Below are positions 323 to 43,161 of a DNA stretch of 44,640 nucleotides, in pieces. The number at the start of each line of letters is the position of its first letter. Positions within the stretch are counted from its first letter, which is position 1. A model generated the notes under the pieces. The model was not told where the DNA came from. It did no database searches and worked only from the letters and a program-made list of their open reading frames with translations. The position numbers and the translations under genes were made by a program. Source of the DNA: Deltaproteobacteria bacterium (GTDB taxonomy: Bacteria; Myxococcota_A; Polyangia; JAAYKL01); contig JAFGQN010000063.1 in assembly GCA_016935665.1 (NCBI GenBank), positions 1-44,640 of the forward strand, given 5' to 3'.

Positions 323-2008
323 CTATTGCAGCGTTTTCCACTTTAATGCGATTAACGTGGTGTCATCACCCGCAGGCAGATATGCCCGGAAATCCAGCAT
401 GGAGCTCACCACATTGTCGGCAATATTCTGGCAGGTTCCGCCGGCCCGGGTGGTCACGGCGTCCAGGAGCCTGTCGTAACCATATTTTTCATTGTCCGGT
501 GAGAACGTATCGGTAATGCCATCGCTAAAAATAAACAGGCCGTCACCTGGCGCCAACGCAACGGTTTGAGTTATAAATTTGTTTGGAAGAATTCCCAATG
601 GCATGTTGACCGGGCATCCCAACACATCCACATTTCCTGCGGAGCTGATTTTTAACGGAAGTTCATGCCCGGCATTTACGTATTCCACTGTTCCTGTATG
701 GGGGTCGAGAAATCCTAAAATGAGTGTTATGAACATACCGTCCAGCAGGGTGTCGCACAGCATTGTATTCATTTTTTCAACGATTTGCGTGGGGGTGGTG
801 CTGAACAGAAGCATTGAGCGAATCATTGAATGCAGATTGGCCATGATCATGGCCGCAGGCATTCCTTTGCCCGAAACGTCACCCACCGCAAACATCAGTC
901 TGCCATCGCTTGAACGGAACAGATCGCAATAGTCTCCGCCCACCCATCCGGCAGGTTTATAGTACAACGCCACCTGGACCTCATCAAACAGCTTCAGGTT
1001 TTTGGGCATCAGGTTGGATTGGATTTCGAGGGCGGTATTGAGCTGCTTATTTAATGCGGTCCGCTCGGCCTTGTACTCCGCCATAATCAGGCTTTTGCGA
1101 CTGAGACTGATCATACGGGCGACCACTGCGAAAAAACCCAACGCATCGGAACGAAACGTCAGGGTCGGCTGGTCAATGTACAACATGTCAATGCCGGTGG
1201 GCGTTTCGGCAATGGGGGCGGCCAGTACCATTCGCGGACTCATATCGCCAATAAATGACAATCTGACATCCTCTGACGCATCTCTGTCCAACGCAGATGT
1301 CGCCATGAACGCGACCCGTTTTTCACGCACCGCTTCCAGCACCGTTTTGGATAAGTGGATATTTTGCAACCCGTGTGGATTGGGCGTGGTTTCGGCCTGA
1401 TATGGTTGTACCAGTTTGCCGCGTTGGCATAGAACCCGTGAATTTTCAACGGAAACAGTTGCTGCCTTTGGCACTTTTACAATGAGCGCCACTGTATCTG
1501 CCGGTTCACTCAAATGATCGCACACGTCGGGATAGAGTGATTGCGCGTCTGTTAATTTTGCCAGACACTCCGCCACGCGATCCAGTTCCTCAAGACGATT
1601 TCTCGAAAATTCCACATAGCAGTCGGATTCGTTAACGAGCGTTTGCGGTTCACTGTATTGTGCCAGCTTCACAGGGGTGGAGATGACGGCATTGGGGATA
1701 ATGCTGGCATCGGGTTTGTCTAAAATACGGATTGTGCTTTCACCGATTCGGATGCGGTCGCCTGCCTGAACAGAAAACGTGTTTCCGACAGTGCCGTTTA
1801 CGTTTATGGGCACCGTTTTGTGAATGGACTCGATAACCCATCTACCAAACGGATCTTTGTATAACCGAGCGTGTTCAGGAAGTACTCGGTCATCCTGGAG
1901 ACATAGACCGCTATTTTTTGAACTGCCGATAATAAGCCCATTGGATGGTGGCGCAATGTGCCGTGTCCTGTTTGCACTTTCCACTGCTAAAACCGCTGCA
2001 GATTTCAT
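323..2008 (-). CDS. FHA-like / GAF-like / PP2C (SpoIIE-type) phosphatase, RsbU analogue
   Basis: Probable output phosphatase of the stressosome operon, which would dephosphorylate an anti-sigma-factor antagonist. Residues about 1-100 read as an FHA fold ending in a GDRIRIG strand. About 150-330 look like a GAF-type sensor region. The C-terminal 230 residues are a SpoIIE/PP2C domain with GGDYCDL, VGDVSGKG, FSDGITDTF and GDDTTLIAL metal-site motifs. I chose ATG at 2008 because AAGGTGAG lies about 7 nt before it. A GTG at 2020 would add four residues. The canonical phosphothreonine-binding residues of FHA (GR, SxxH, SxNG) are largely replaced (GSS, LPEH, no SxNG). It lies 122 bp after the RsbT-like gene on the same strand. 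The PP2C assignment is firm; the FHA and GAF parts and the target are inferred. Confidence 0.85.
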   Translation of the reverse strand: MKSAAVLAVESANRTRHIAPPSNGLIIGSSKNSGLCLQDDRVLPEHARLYKDPFGRWVIESIHKTVPINVNGTVGNTFSVQAGDRIRIGESTIRILDKPDASIIPNAVISTPVKLAQYSEPQTLVNESDCYVEFSRNRLEELDRVAECLAKLTDAQSLYPDVCDHLSEPADTVALIVKVPKAATVSVENSRVLCQRGKLVQPYQAETTPNPHGLQNIHLSKTVLEAVREKRVAFMATSALDRDASEDVRLSFIGDMSPRMVLAAPIAETPTGIDMLYIDQPTLTFRSDALGFFAVVARMISLSRKSLIMAEYKAERTALNKQLNTALEIQSNLMPKNLKLFDEVQVALYYKPAGWVGGDYCDLFRSSDGRLMFAVGDVSGKGMPAAMIMANLHSMIRSMLLFSTTPTQIVEKMNTMLCDTLLDGMFITLILGFLDPHTGTVEYVNAGHELPLKISSAGNVDVLGCPVNMPLGILPNKFITQTVALAPGDGLFIFSDGITDTFSPDNEKYGYDRLLDAVTTRAGGTCQNIADNVVSSMLDFRAYLPAGDDTTLIALKWKTLQ

Positions 2009-2130
2009 TTTTTTTCTCACCTTGCGAAAAATTTTTTTTAGCCTACATCGTCATTTCGGGGAAAGCAACCCGCCAGAGAGCGAATTCCAATTCCGGCCTG
2101 GTGCGGGGGTCTCGCCCATAAAGATGCGGC

Positions 2131-2571
2131 TCATCTGTCGGGGAGCCACTTCCAAATGGTTGCGCGCGCTCCCCCTTCCGATGCATTGCAAATGGACATT
2201 TGGTCGGTGAGTCGTTTCACCGCCCCTAAACCATATCCGAGCCCGTGTCGGTCCCGTATTGCGTCATCTTCTGACAGAAACCGTCCCTCGGAGTAGCCAT
2301 CCTGAAGTGCCAGTTCAACGTTGTCAAATCCCGGACCGTTATCGGCCACCGTAATTTGCAGGCATCTTCTGGGAGATTCCAGATACTGGATTGTGAGGTG
2401 CGCCTTTGTGCCAAACTTTAATGCGTTGGTGAGCAGTTCCGTAATGGCGATGGATAATTCCACCTCCCGCTTGTGGGGGCAACCAAAATGGCAGGCGAAC
2501 AAGGCGCATTGTTTACGGACATATGCGAATTCATTGCGAGATTTGATAGTCCACGATTTTTCGGGCGGCAT
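2131..2571 (-). CDS. Second RsbT-like / anti-sigma-type HATPase kinase
   Basis: A 146-residue stand-alone GHKL ATPase domain. The N box is ELLTNALKFG, the G1 box DNGPGF and the G2 box GLGYGLGAVKRLTD. The GxxxVKRLxD ending of G2 is closer to RsbT than to RsbW, but kinase and anti-sigma roles cannot be separated by eye. It starts at ATG 2571, nine bases after the rsbX stop, and is followed by the FHA-phosphatase gene. Likely jobs are phosphorylating a STAS protein, or being released from the stressosome to activate the downstream phosphatase, as RsbT does for RsbU. The Shine-Dalgarno signal is weak, so translation may be coupled to rsbX. Confidence 0.85.
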   Translation of the reverse strand: MPPEKSWTIKSRNEFAYVRKQCALFACHFGCPHKREVELSIAITELLTNALKFGTKAHLTIQYLESPRRCLQITVADNGPGFDNVELALQDGYSEGRFLSEDDAIRDRHGLGYGLGAVKRLTDQMSICNASEGGARATIWKWLPDR

Positions 2572-2580
2572 TGCAGAAGC

Positions 2581-3162
2581 CTACTCGCAGCGGATCGCGA
2601 GAACAGTGGCGTCGTCGTGATTTTTGCCCCATCCAGAGAGGATTTCCCTGCAGATTTGTTTTGGGTTCAAGTCTCGAAAGGATTCCAGTTTGAACCTTGA
2701 GGATATCCCATCTGTGAATACCGTCAGCACATCCCCCGAATGAAGCGGATATTCAAATGCAACTATCCGCCCCAAACGACGTCCCACAATACCGGGTTTT
2801 GATATGGGGCGAATGGGTGTTGCACTCAGAGCACTCATTTCCACATTTCCAACTCCCGCATATTTGATTATCTGCTCGTGGGCATAGAGTCGCATGACCG
2901 AGGCGGCAACACCACGGGTTCTGGCAATCACTCCTGTTGCTTTTTGCAGCAAATCGGGCAATGGCAAATTCGCCGAAACCTCGTTGTTGAAAAAGTCCAC
3001 AAATGCCATTGCCGCCACATTCGCTGCCGGGCCATGGCCCAGTCCGTCAATCACCGCGATATGAGTGATGCCCGATGCCTCGTCCTCGCAAACGGCGACC
3101 GCATCGCCGCAAATGGTTTCGCCCCTGCAGATTGTTTGTTCATATGCTATATTAAATTTCAT
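2581..3162 (-). CDS. rsbX: RsbX-type PP2C phosphatase (stressosome reset)
   Basis: A small, single-domain SpoIIE/PP2C phosphatase of 193 residues. Conserved metal-site motifs are VIDGLGHG (Asp39), VFTDGISS and HDDATVLAI at the C-terminus. In Bacillus, RsbX removes the phosphates that RsbT places on RsbR and RsbS and so resets the stressosome. Length and lack of a sensor domain fit that role. I chose ATG 3162 because it overlaps the rsbT stop as ATGA, a typical coupling arrangement. A GTG at 3171 is also possible and adds three residues. Position directly after rsbT supports the call. Confidence 0.88.
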   Translation of the reverse strand: MKFNIAYEQTICRGETICGDAVAVCEDEASGITHIAVIDGLGHGPAANVAAMAFVDFFNNEVSANLPLPDLLQKATGVIARTRGVAASVMRLYAHEQIIKYAGVGNVEMSALSATPIRPISKPGIVGRRLGRIVAFEYPLHSGDVLTVFTDGISSRFKLESFRDLNPKQICREILSGWGKNHDDATVLAIRCE

Positions 3163-3821
3163 TTGACCCACTTGCGAATAACAACCAATGTCCCGGAATT
3201 GGGACTGCTGCGAATATCAAACTCATCGACCATGTTGCGTGTTCCGGTCAATCCTTTGCCCATACCGCTTTTGGATACGTATCGCCCCGATAGTATGGAG
3301 TCCAGATTGGGAATCCCCGGTCCATGGTCCTCGGCTGTGACCTGCAGATACGGGCGCCCGTTTTCGTGTGACGCGTGAAGCGTGATTGAGCCTTCACCTG
3401 CGTACTGAACGATATTTCGGGCCAGTTCCGAAATGGCGGTTGCCAGCTTTACCTGGAGGAGTGATGTAAACCCAAGTGTCTTGCACATCTGACGGCCGGC
3501 GCCTCTGGCCACAACAATGTCCCCTTCAGAGCGAATTGATATTTTCTGATGTTCCGTTGCTGCCGGTGCAGAAACGGAGTTTCTGGAATTCAGCAATGAC
3601 TCCAGTTGATTCATGCAATCTTTCGCCTGTTGTGGTTTCAGGTAGCGTCCGAGCCCCTTCTGGAGTGACAATAAGAGCCTTTGTCGATCACCGATGCGCA
3701 ATCGGCGAAGACTGATTCCAGAAGCTGCAATCCGCGACGATAGCACTGTTTCAGCAACAATGGGGCTGAGGTATTTTGAAAGTATGTTTTTTATTTCTGT
3801 TTCAAGTGGTGACATGAGCAT
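3159..3821 (-). CDS. rsbT: RsbT switch kinase with N-terminal extension
   Basis: Residues about 92-220 form the RsbT kinase: N box SELARNIVQYA (131-141), G1 DHGPGI (165-170) and G2 GMGKGLTGTRNMVDEF (186-201). RsbT binds the RsbR/RsbS stressosome, phosphorylates both STAS proteins on stress, and is then released to activate a phosphatase. B. subtilis RsbT is only about 133 residues. Here some 90 extra N-terminal residues are predicted helical and end in a Ser/Ala-rich linker; this extension is unusual and I do not recognise it. The gene begins one base after the rsbS stop and overlaps rsbX. A second ATG at 3815 is an alternative start. Confidence 0.9.
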   Translation of the reverse strand: MLMSPLETEIKNILSKYLSPIVAETVLSSRIAASGISLRRLRIGDRQRLLLSLQKGLGRYLKPQQAKDCMNQLESLLNSRNSVSAPAATEHQKISIRSEGDIVVARGAGRQMCKTLGFTSLLQVKLATAISELARNIVQYAGEGSITLHASHENGRPYLQVTAEDHGPGIPNLDSILSGRYVSKSGMGKGLTGTRNMVDEFDIRSSPNSGTLVVIRKWVK

Positions 3822-3822
3822 T

Positions 3823-4251
3823 TCAATCGGCTGTTCTGGAATTCACCCCCGCCAAAATGAATTCAGAAAAAGCAGCGTCATCCGCTTCAACGCGTTCCAT
3901 TCCCAAAAGATCAATCGCATCTTCAAGAGTAAGCGCTGTACGAACGTCATTCATCTCAAGGCCCATTTCCACCAGCGTCATTGCCACCAGGGGATCCATG
4001 CCAGAGATGACGGTTTGGGCCCCCATTAACTTGGAAATAAGCGCTATGTCCCGGATAGATCTCGAAATGTAACTGTCCATGAGGTCAATGCCGGAGAGAT
4101 CGATAATCAATCCCCGGGCACCATAATCTCCGATATTCTGAGTAATATCTTCTTTCAGCGCCACCACCAAATCATCGCTAAGCGACACCTGGATGGACAC
4201 AATCAAATTTCCATACAGGCGGATGATGGGGATACGTGTGGCAATGGTCAT
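3823..4251 (-). CDS. rsbS: RsbS, stressosome scaffold STAS protein
   Basis: A 142-residue single STAS domain. The RsbS phosphorylation motif is clear: IIDLSGIDLMDSYI, with Ser60 in the position of Bacillus Ser59. RsbS forms the icosahedral core of the stressosome together with RsbR and sequesters RsbT until phosphorylated. The gene starts at ATG 4251, overlapping the rsbR stop by 4 bp (ATGA), and is followed one base later by rsbT. About 25 residues beyond the usual STAS end have no recognised role. Confidence 0.92.
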   Translation of the reverse strand: MTIATRIPIIRLYGNLIVSIQVSLSDDLVVALKEDITQNIGDYGARGLIIDLSGIDLMDSYISRSIRDIALISKLMGAQTVISGMDPLVAMTLVEMGLEMNDVRTALTLEDAIDLLGMERVEADDAAFSEFILAGVNSRTAD

Positions 4252-4904
4252 TGGATTTTCTCCATTTTCCGTTTACCAAGACTAATGCGGCGAAGACAAT
4301 CGGTTAGACCGTCCTTCAGGGTCGCCAGTGTGATGATACTTGACAAATCCACGCCGATTTCCACAAGCGTCTGGGCGACCGCTGGCCGGATACCGGTGAG
4401 TACGCAATTGGTTCCCAGCAATTGTGCGGCTTTGATAATTTTAATAAAATGGTCTGCTGTTTTCGTATCCACAATTTCAACGCCGGTAATATCCATTATA
4501 ACGTAACGCGCCTGCTTCTGACTGACTTCTGTCAAAAGCCGTTCCATAATGTCTGCGCTGCGTTGCGTATCCACCACGCCGATAATCGGCATGACCAGAA
4601 TGTCTTCCCAGATTTGCATCACCGGTGTGGACAGTTCCTGAATCGCACTGGCCTGCATTTCAATGGTGACCAGTTTGTCTTCCAGCTCGCGTTTCTGCGC
4701 TTCCATTTTGCGCTGGGTATTGCGCTGGTATTCGAACACGTCTCCCAAATCCCTAAGCATAAGATTCAGTCCCTCTTCAACCACGGAGAGACTGTCTTTC
4801 TCGGTGATTTGAAGCGCATATTTCTCATCAAAGTCACCAGTGGTGATGGTCGCCAGCAATTTTTTTATTTGTTCGAGACGTTCTTCGATATTTTTAATGG
4901 TCAT
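4248..4904 (-). CDS. rsbR: RsbR-type stressosome sensor/scaffold
   Basis: A 218-residue protein with a C-terminal STAS domain (about 95-210) and an N-terminal helical part. Both RsbR phospho-threonines of Bacillus are present in their motifs: Thr147 in EIVDTKTADHF (Thr171) and Thr179 in PAVAQTLVEIG (Thr205). The N-terminus lacks the non-heme globin fold of B. subtilis RsbRA. Residues 1-55 look like a short HAMP-like helical pair, and 56-92 like a linker helix (QRKMEAQKRELEDK). The sensory input is therefore not obvious and may come from the two SpoIIAA-like proteins encoded just upstream. It lies 24 bp after that pair and overlaps rsbS. Confidence 0.9.
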   Translation of the reverse strand: MTIKNIEERLEQIKKLLATITTGDFDEKYALQITEKDSLSVVEEGLNLMLRDLGDVFEYQRNTQRKMEAQKRELEDKLVTIEMQASAIQELSTPVMQIWEDILVMPIIGVVDTQRSADIMERLLTEVSQKQARYVIMDITGVEIVDTKTADHFIKIIKAAQLLGTNCVLTGIRPAVAQTLVEIGVDLSSIITLATLKDGLTDCLRRISLGKRKMEKIQ

Positions 4905-4928
4905 TGCGTTATCCCTATTCTGGTTTCA

Positions 4929-5333
4929 TCATGATTGATTCTGTGCCTTAAGCCAGGCCAGCCCGTCTTCGTAGGATTTAAACACCTCAACAGTGACGCC
5001 CTTTTCTTTGTATCGCTGAATAATGGCGCGCATAGCCATTTTGCCAAATATTTTTTCCGGAACCACAAGGGCCCAATACTTCCAGCCCGCTTCCAGGATC
5101 TGTGGCTCCCATTCGGCCTGCGCCCAGATCAGATCTTCCTGATTTACCATGGGGTTTAACGAGTCATCAGAGAGCCATGCTGTGCAATTGTGTTTTATAT
5201 AGGCATCCCTGCCCGCGCGAAACATGGCCTTAAAATCGTCCCCCTCCACAAAGCCATGCATTTGATGGGTTACGATTTTGTCTTCAGGAAAGACCTTTAC
5301 TGTGTACTTTTTGTTTGATTCTACAGTCCTCAT
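4929..5333 (-). CDS. SpoIIAA/STAS-like protein, paralogue B
   Basis: A 134-residue protein about 60% identical by hand alignment to its neighbour at 5436-5831, without gaps over 131 residues. The fold looks like the SpoIIAA-like/CRAL-TRIO-related STAS family: an early strand with HQMHGFVEG, LSDDSLNPM in the middle, and ALVVPEKIFGKMAM. The conserved tryptophans and the ALVVPEKIF segment are shared with the paralogue. No classical STAS phospho-acceptor motif (DxSG...DS/T) is seen. The start ATG 5333 has GAGGAT 5 nt upstream. Its place at the head of the stressosome operon suggests a sensor or adaptor role, which is inference. Confidence 0.75.
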   Translation of the reverse strand: MRTVESNKKYTVKVFPEDKIVTHQMHGFVEGDDFKAMFRAGRDAYIKHNCTAWLSDDSLNPMVNQEDLIWAQAEWEPQILEAGWKYWALVVPEKIFGKMAMRAIIQRYKEKGVTVEVFKSYEDGLAWLKAQNQS

Positions 5334-5435
5334 ATATCCTCTGTATCTCCTGGCCTGACCTGCAAAATGCAGCGATCTTTTAAAGAATTATATGTTCAGG
5401 TATAACGGCAATAGTATTGAAATTTTTAATGACCG

Positions 5436-5831
5436 TTACTGCTTTTCCAGCCAGTCTAATGCCTCGTCGTACTCTTTAAAGACTTTTACCGATACCCCCA
5501 TATCCTCATATCGCTGCATCACACCCCGCATGGCCATTTTAGCAAATATTTTTTCCGGAACCACAAGGGCCCAGAATTTCCATCCAGCCTTCAGTATTTT
5601 CGGTTCCCAGACCTCGCGTCCCCATTTCAGGTCTTCCTGATTCATCATTGGGTTCATGGAATCGTCGGAGAGGTATTTGGTACAGCCGTGCTCTTCATAC
5701 GCCGCCACACCTGTCAGCATCATGTCCTGGAAATCGGCTCCTTCGACAAAACCATTCATCTGATGAGACACAATTCCCAATTCCGGATAAACTCGCAACG
5801 TAAACAGCTTTGTTTTTTTTACGATTTTCAC
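5436..5831 (-). CDS. SpoIIAA/STAS-like protein, paralogue A
   Basis: A 131-residue paralogue of the next gene (about 60% identity by eye), apparently the first gene of the stressosome operon. It shares SHQMNGFVEG, YLSDDSMNPMMNQEDL and WALVVPEKIFAKMAMR with its partner. GTG at 5831 is the start: AGGAGG lies 6 nt upstream, and no better ATG exists. The duplication is recent enough to keep length and register but old enough for distinct surfaces, so the two may work as a heterodimer or sense different signals. Function is inferred only from family and position. Confidence 0.75.
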   Translation of the reverse strand: MKIVKKTKLFTLRVYPELGIVSHQMNGFVEGADFQDMMLTGVAAYEEHGCTKYLSDDSMNPMMNQEDLKWGREVWEPKILKAGWKFWALVVPEKIFAKMAMRGVMQRYEDMGVSVKVFKEYDEALDWLEKQ

Positions 5832-41544: not shown

Positions 41545-43161
41545 TTATCGTGGAGGGGCCTGTGCCCAGTTCCAGGGCAGCAAAGGTTCAATCTCTTTGG
41601 TCTCGGTCATCTGCAATTTGATAATCACATCCCTGATGTAATCATACGGATTAATGTTGTGCAGCTTGCAGGTGGCCACTATTGTCTGGAGAATGGCCAG
41701 ATTCTTGCCACCTTCTTCATGTCCGGCGAAGAGATAATTTTTTCGTCCCAGTGCGACAATTCGCAGCGCGTTTTCTGAAAAGTTATTGTCTAATCTGAGC
41801 TTGGGATCGTTTGTGAATTCGGTTAAGGATTCCCACTGGTTTTGGGCATAGGCTATGGCTTTGCCCATTTTTGATTTTGGTGTGAATTTTGGCTTTTGCT
41901 CAGTGAGCCATTTTTCCATGCGATCGAGGATGTCGCGGCTTTCTGTCTGGCGCAGATGCAGATGGTCGGGTGTTCCCAGTATGCCACGTTCTGCCGCAAG
42001 GTATTCGACCAGATATAAATCCAGGATCATGTCGATTATCTCTTTTGCGACATCATTGTCTTTCAGGGCCTTGAAAAACATTCGCCTGGCATGAGACAGG
42101 CAACCGACTCTTTTGCGCCCATTCTTCTTTTTCTTCTTGTCTTCACAAACGGCATTGTACGCGGAATAGCCATCAATCTGCAAATGCCCGGTGGTGCCTT
42201 TCAGCAGTTCCTCTGCGACTCTTTTGCTTCTGGATTCACTGAAATGATAGGCAATTACCTGTTTGGTTACCAGTGTCCATATCCATTCGTTTTTACACTT
42301 GTCTGGTTTCTGCACCGGCAGCCTTGTTTCGTCTGCGCTCACATATTCGTCACAGCGGGCAAGTTCAATCAGACGATCGTAAATTGGACCAAAGATTTCA
42401 GCAGTGCGGTGAAACAGGGCGCACAGCGTACTGCGGCAAATTGGAAATCCTGCCCGCTCCAGACGTCGTTCAATTCTGTACAATGGCAGGCTGTCCACAC
42501 ATTTATTCACCACCACATCTGCATAAATGCCCGGGCCGTAATGGCCACCTTCCACTACCGAGGGTGGTGCTTTGGCGGTGACAATCACCTCGCCATCCTT
42601 TGAAGCCATTGTCTGCAAAATATATTTTACCTGGACCAGGTGCTCACGGACATGGTCGATGCGTGTCACCACGTTGGCCTCACCGCCCTGGGCCACTTCC
42701 CCAAACATGTCCAGCGTGTAGCCTTCCGGCAAATCATCTGCTGTTACCAGTACTTCTTCTTTGATTACCGGCAGATTTTTCTTTAATCCGCGTTTCTTCT
42801 TTCTGGCGGGCTCACTTTTCCTGCGGGCAACCTTGCGCCTGATTTTTTTCTTCTCTTCTTCATCCAGATCTGCCTCCGGGCTCCCGGGAGGAAAGAGTTC
42901 GTCTTCGGTCACCGCACGGCGCACTGCCGATTTCATCGACGGCATCTTTTCGCTTTTGCGATTAAATAGCATGTTGCGCAAATCTTCGATTTGCTCGGTA
43001 AGGTGGGTTATTTGATCGGTTTGTTTTTTGTTCTGTTTAAGCTGTTCTTTATTGGCGGCAAGCAGCTCCGCATTCTGTTTGCGCAACAGTTGAATGACGA
43101 CTTTAACAATCGGGTCGAGGTTTTTCTCCAGGTCGTCATAATCGATGTCGTCAAGACTCAT
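41545..43161 (-). CDS. tnpC: IS66 transposase TnpC (DDE)
   Basis: A 538-residue IS66 transposase. A leucine-zipper-like N-terminus (KQNKKQTDQITHLTEQIEDL) and a basic stretch precede the catalytic domain with VSADETR, LQIDGYSAYN and RLDNNFSENALR, the DDE triad positions. IS66 transposases usually have a CxxC zinc finger between zipper and catalytic part. That position here (VKYIL) has no cysteines, so this belongs to a finger-less subgroup. It lies 42 bp after tnpB. Confidence 0.93.
   Translation of the reverse strand: MSLDDIDYDDLEKNLDPIVKVVIQLLRKQNAELLAANKEQLKQNKKQTDQITHLTEQIEDLRNMLFNRKSEKMPSMKSAVRRAVTEDELFPPGSPEADLDEEEKKKIRRKVARRKSEPARKKKRGLKKNLPVIKEEVLVTADDLPEGYTLDMFGEVAQGGEANVVTRIDHVREHLVQVKYILQTMASKDGEVIVTAKAPPSVVEGGHYGPGIYADVVVNKCVDSLPLYRIERRLERAGFPICRSTLCALFHRTAEIFGPIYDRLIELARCDEYVSADETRLPVQKPDKCKNEWIWTLVTKQVIAYHFSESRSKRVAEELLKGTTGHLQIDGYSAYNAVCEDKKKKKNGRKRVGCLSHARRMFFKALKDNDVAKEIIDMILDLYLVEYLAAERGILGTPDHLHLRQTESRDILDRMEKWLTEQKPKFTPKSKMGKAIAYAQNQWESLTEFTNDPKLRLDNNFSENALRIVALGRKNYLFAGHEEGGKNLAILQTIVATCKLHNINPYDYIRDVIIKLQMTETKEIEPLLPWNWAQAPPR

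Follow-up and report, generated by a model that had tools for sequence, protein, structure and literature searches.

A sigma-free stressosome locus with a five-gene R-S-T-X-T2 cassette in a deltaproteobacterial genome

We analyzed a 44,640-nucleotide stretch of DNA (hereafter, the window) that makes up contig C118 of an 8.16 Mb genome in 249 contigs (coded G000; statements about this genome rest on profile searches of its contigs). ORF and domain searches found eight ORFs at positions 323–5831, all on the minus strand, and all eight genes named in the original prediction, with their domains, were present. The gene order begins with two SpoIIAA-like proteins, A (5436–5831; PF11964, 27.1 bits against a cut-off of 25) and B (4929–5333; ~60% identical to A, with no Pfam match of its own). 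RsbR follows (4248–4904; 218 aa, STAS domain at residues 94–187, phospho-sites T113 and T147 by alignment), then RsbS (3823–4251; 142 aa, STAS domain, phospho-site S60), the RsbT switch kinase (3159–3821; 220 aa, with an N-terminal four-helix domain at residues 5–79 and a C-terminal HATPase domain at ~88–220), an RsbX-type PP2C phosphatase (2581–3171; 196 aa, SpoIIE/PP2C domain), and a second ATPase of the RsbT/RsbW superfamily that we call T2 (2131–2571; 146 aa, HATPase domain). The last gene (323–2008) encodes a phosphatase of RsbU-like output type composed of an FHA domain, an unassigned middle region, a coiled linker, and a SpoIIE/PP2C domain. From RsbR to T2, neighboring genes overlap or are separated by gaps of at most 9 nt. 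Protein B lies 24 nt upstream of RsbR and protein A ~100 nt from B, and the phosphatase is found downstream of T2 on the same strand, across a gap of 110+ nt. Its start is more likely the ATG at 2008, preceded by AAGGTGAG, than the GTG at 2020. A foreign origin of the block was dropped as an explanation because its GC content and codon use are ordinary relative to the rest of the window, and promoter and terminator scans of the locus gave results at chance level. Close to the far end of the contig is a transposase-like ORF, IS66-type by eye (41545–43161, minus strand).

Profile comparisons with solved structures identified the locus as a stressosome, as predicted, with sequence matches for R, S, and X that place their orthology to stressosome proteins far beyond chance. 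RsbS matched the PDB RsbS 6jhk at E = 6e-40, and RsbR was closest, among solved structures, to the Vibrio RsbR 7o0i (E = 3e-36); the RsbR relative identified among named genomes came from a Myxococcota MAG. The best PDB matches of RsbX were Moorella 3zt9 (E = 6e-39) and B. subtilis RsbX 3w40 (E = 6e-28), and all others were far weaker, indicating an enzyme related to RsbX and not to RsbU. RsbS also matched 2vy9, and we take 3zt9 and 2vy9 to be Moorella entries. The alignment of RsbR with Listeria 7b0u had no gaps and an offset of 62, so that T113 and T147 fall on T175 and T209, which are published phosphorylation sites of Listeria RsbR according to excerpts of PMC6614362, and the D59-S60 pair of RsbS was invariant across 15 homologs; the predicted conservation of both RsbR phospho-threonines and of the RsbS phospho-serine was thereby borne out. 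The HATPase domain of RsbT scored 41.5 bits, with E132/N136, D165/G167, and G188/G190 of the N and G boxes invariant; the active-site boxes of T2 were also intact (N-box E45/N49 and the G boxes), and the metal-site aspartates of RsbX were conserved (D23, D42, D154, and D187). Matches to solved structures related both T and T2 to SpoIIAB/RsbW-type ATPases. The N-terminus of RsbR (residues 1–78) is HAMP-like/coiled, and a Pfam search recognized no sensor domain in these ~78 residues; a short RsbR also occurs at locus L085, and RsbR N-termini in relatives consist of GAF, PAS, protoglobin, or XylR_N-V4R domains.

RsbS-like genes were found in 25 of the 96 genomes of our relatives sample, the source genome included, and none was detected in the congeners G001 and G002 of that sample. 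Since the comparison genomes are incomplete MAGs, each absence is a non-detection, and single absences carry little weight. Searches with profiles of the five proteins recovered the order R-S-T-X-T2 in seven other genomes (loci L077, L079, L081, L082, L083, L084, and L086), the same five genes with T in last position at L026, and R-S-T-T2 with no X at L078 and L080. This version of the cassette recurs over several families of one Myxococcota-type class, and the conserved unit is the five genes R-S-T-X-T2. A XylR_N-V4R sensor is encoded by a separate gene before RsbR at L078 (7436–8101), L080 (6596–7261), and L082 (217–972) and is fused to RsbR at L084 and L086 (V4R not scored in L086). The same three loci with the detached sensor belong to one genus (genomes G012, G013, and G003), within which L082 has RsbX between RsbT and T2 and the other two loci lack it.

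Two features set the cassette's ATPases apart. RsbT carries an extra N-terminal helical domain of ~80 residues that is conserved in 11 relatives, and T2 occupies a part of the tree separate from that of T. An RsbU_N identity for the extension gained no clear support: none of 15 members gave an RsbU_N match in Pfam, a weak test given that the domain is helical, and a fold comparison returned nothing clear beyond common helical arrangements, from a list of solved folds that does not include RsbU and whose lack of it proves nothing. Genomes G059 and G015 encode an X-type phosphatase joined in one protein with an RsbT-family ATPase. These fusions may have arisen by an independent duplication, because their ATPase domains score higher with the T profile than with the T2 profile and lie nearer T in the tree. 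The presence of T2 at L078 and L080, where RsbX was not found, indicates that T2 does more than carry RsbX. An RsbX-type phosphatase at L091 (8625–9599, G047) has an N-terminal stretch that matches a T2-type ATPase over its first half only and looks like a decayed remnant. Excerpts from published accounts of stressosomes contain no description of T2 or of the RsbT extension, which does not establish that both are new to the literature.

Neither flank of the cassette recurs with it in the relatives examined. The FHA phosphatase has a full-length ortholog (71%) in G001, where it adjoins CheB, CheX, and HDOD genes and where no stressosome was detected, and it has no close ortholog in the stressosome-bearing relatives; because the two distributions differ, the pairing of this enzyme with a stressosome at one locus is not conserved. 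On visual inspection, the FHA motif is degenerate in both the window and G001, with IGS and LPEH in place of the usual Gly-Arg and Ser-x-x-His. The loss of these residues makes phospho-threonine binding doubtful, and docking of the FHA domain on phospho-RsbR was rejected as an output link for the same reason. The SpoIIAA-like proteins A and B are, judging from homology searches, members of a lineage-specific paralogue family that has six almost complete copies in the source genome, together with two partial matches; congeners have few, and the family turned up in 13 of the 379 genomes of a phylum sample. They lie beside STAS genes in only two of those 13, the source genome and G080, and a role as general stressosome partners was discarded accordingly. 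At locus L135 of G080 (C24, 6013–7010), the sole SpoIIAA-like gene found in that genome is followed after 2 nt by an RsbR-like gene, in which both phospho-threonine motifs are lost. Both G001 and G002 keep the run radical SAM–DnaJ–HflC–HflK–leuD–leuC, and the 323–5831 block is missing at its end; the presence of the block at this position is therefore peculiar to this lineage. The phosphatase and the SpoIIAA-like genes are lineage-specific neighbors and not part of the conserved cassette, with an unproven link to the stressosome. These results do not bear out the original description of a self-contained operon, and the co-occurrence in related genomes that it raised holds for these five genes but not for the phosphatase or the SpoIIAA-like genes.

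No SigB/F/G sigma factor scored above the TIGR02980 cut-off anywhere in the source genome, which agrees with the predicted lack of sigma-B. The five best sigma candidates were RpoD, a group-2 RpoD/RpoS-like protein, two RpoH-like proteins, and FliA, and other sigma-70 region-2 matches were mostly short, ECF-sized frames. RsbU_N gave no match in the genome at E ≤ 1 in a search that scored above its cut-off in 1 of 14 named control genomes; in G072, the same search gave a weak match (22 bits, below cut-off) on a histidine kinase directly behind RSTX. With neither a SigB-type sigma factor nor an RsbU_N target in the genome, the suggestion that the output differs from that of Bacillus is probably right. 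RsbV and a typical RsbW are missing from the operon, as predicted; elsewhere in the genome, STAS and HATPase searches located an RsbV/RsbW-like pair on contig C58 behind sugar-transferase genes; the best NCBIfam match of its RsbW-like member is RsbW, at 54.7 bits and below the cut-off of 145. No sigma gene adjoins this pair and it is not linked to the stressosome, so that half of a sigma/RsbV/RsbW cluster, of the kind that would mark a plain sigma-B-type system, was found. The pair also occurs in G001, and the RsbW ortholog is present in both G001 and G002, where no stressosome was detected; none turned up in family members that carry a stressosome. RsbW therefore tracks the genus and not the stressosome. 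Further matches in the source genome included a STAS gene on C180 and a receiver-phosphatase on C233 (STAS and SpoIIE searches), and a second partner-switch set at L021 (G000:C176:19640–23221) encodes a SiaA-like phosphatase, an slr1658-type regulator, and a STAS protein.

A stressosome without a sigma factor is not unusual, as published work describes sigma-free rsbRSTX as the widespread form. As stated in excerpts of Heinz et al. 2022 (PMC9237108), the eight-gene SigB operon is apparently restricted to the Bacillales, and a module of four genes, rsbRSTX, is conserved widely in the absence of sigB and its cascade, followed by various kinds of downstream module, among them PP2C phosphatases that in some cases have RsbU_N; excerpts of Jia et al. 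2016 (PMC4976288) make the same point on sigma-free modules for Vibrio. Like the modules of Vibrio vulnificus and V. brasiliensis in these excerpts, the locus has an R-S-T-X core without SigB, RsbV, or RsbW, encodes RsbX directly after RsbT, and has a Vibrio-like RsbR. Unlike them, it encodes T2, its RsbT bears an N-terminal domain, its RsbR lacks a globin sensor, and no two-component/cyclic-di-GMP output module follows the cassette. With B. subtilis and Listeria it shares the RsbR threonines (T171/T205 in B. subtilis numbering), the RsbS serine, and orthologs of RsbT and RsbX, whereas the operon has no RsbU_N phosphatase, RsbV, RsbW, or SigB. The system of Moorella thermoacetica (MtR/MtS/MtT/MtX) is similar in its RsbX and RsbS, as the structural matches indicate, and in an output other than SigB (in Moorella a diguanylate cyclase, as cited in the excerpts of Jia et al.); it differs in that no RsbU_N-GGDEF target was found in our genome. 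What this lineage adds to the known and widespread sigma-free type is a conserved T2 and the extended RsbT.

We propose, with a probability of roughly 0.7, that the locus encodes a sigma-free RSTX-type stressosome in a five-gene R-S-T-X-T2 version that runs the standard cycle, acts on an unlinked target other than SigB, and has T2 working in or beside the cycle. The proposal starts from observed gene content, conserved residues, conservation of the cassette, and the lack of a SigB-type sigma factor; each catalytic and binding step is inferred from stressosomes that have been studied. RsbR and RsbS would form a scaffold that holds the kinase RsbT; upon a signal, RsbT would phosphorylate RsbR at T113 and T147 and RsbS at S60 and then leave, and RsbX would strip the phosphates and reset the complex. 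The STAS proteins are most likely a docking site for T2 as well, whether it stands beside RsbX or is fused to it, and T2 would there modulate the reset or compete with RsbT. Released RsbT would act on a target other than SigB or an RsbU_N protein, and the leading candidate for selecting that target is its helical N-terminal domain. The separation of T and T2 in the tree, the RsbT extension in 11 relatives, the ATPase-RsbX fusions, the absence of SigB/F/G and RsbU_N, and the G001 and G002 site without the block count in favor of this explanation. Against it count the persistence of T2 without RsbX at L078 and L080, the T-like character of the fusion ATPases, and the phosphatase, which lies ~110 nt downstream on the same strand and could be co-transcribed with the cassette.

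That phosphatase is central to an explanation we consider unlikely, in which RsbT or T2 would activate the FHA-SpoIIE enzyme, which would dephosphorylate the RsbV-like protein on C58 so that it binds the RsbW-like kinase and frees a non-SigB partner. The enzyme is of RsbU-type SpoIIE class and just downstream, C58 encodes a genuine RsbV/RsbW-like pair, some published RSTX modules precede PP2C phosphatases as described above, and a linker-dimer model in excerpts of PMC12143880 has coiled linkers that let varied N-terminal domains control such phosphatases. Yet this phosphatase lacks an RsbU_N domain, the pair sits behind sugar-transferase genes and not a sigma gene, and the distributions run the wrong way, with phosphatase ortholog and pair together in G001, RsbW in G002, and a stressosome detected in neither. 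It is quite improbable that all eight genes form one system, with SpoIIAA-like input, a stressosome hub, and the phosphatase as a non-transcriptional output: the shared strand, the proximity of SpoIIAA-like genes to RsbR here and in G080, and the existence in relatives of a detached sensor gene before RsbR, elsewhere fused, alongside a window RsbR without a sensor of its own, fit such an arrangement, but the flanks do not travel with the cassette and the SpoIIAA-like family has several further copies elsewhere in the genome and contacts STAS genes in so few others. We are similarly doubtful that T2 rather than T is the output, freed to act in RsbW-like manner as an anti-effector kinase on an unlinked protein. 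T2 is kept where RsbX is lost, its active-site boxes are intact, and its nearest solved relatives include SpoIIAB and RsbW; however, no separate STAS antagonist or sigma gene lies beside T2 in the loci examined, and the fusion of a similar ATPase to RsbX points to a role inside the phosphorylation cycle.

Beyond the five-gene stressosome proposed here, a stronger reading, which we consider unlikely, is a distinct subtype in which T2 and the extended RsbT replace the RsbU branch, the target is unlinked and not a sigma factor, and separate inputs (XylR_N-V4R or SpoIIAA-like) stand before a sensor-less RsbR, with the hub in some relatives possibly targeting a [NiFe]-hydrogenase/HdrA redox system. 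Sigma-free stressosomes are common, and the five-gene version offers a clean comparative system: T2 and the extension of RsbT are well-delimited components that could be removed individually, and hydrogenase-linked loci provide a concrete candidate target. A link between stressosome and redox/hydrogenase functions is suggested because such genes (FlpD/MvhD, NiFe-hydrogenase, HdrA-like flavoprotein, and TusA) adjoin stressosome genes in three relatives; a literature search on this link returned nothing relevant. The stressosome genes are interleaved with, or lie beside, the hydrogenase-type genes at L094 (G064:C125, 9662–17493), L026 (6940–12632), and L077 (655–6862), and inspection of translations by eye revealed a HypA-like gene at these loci as well.
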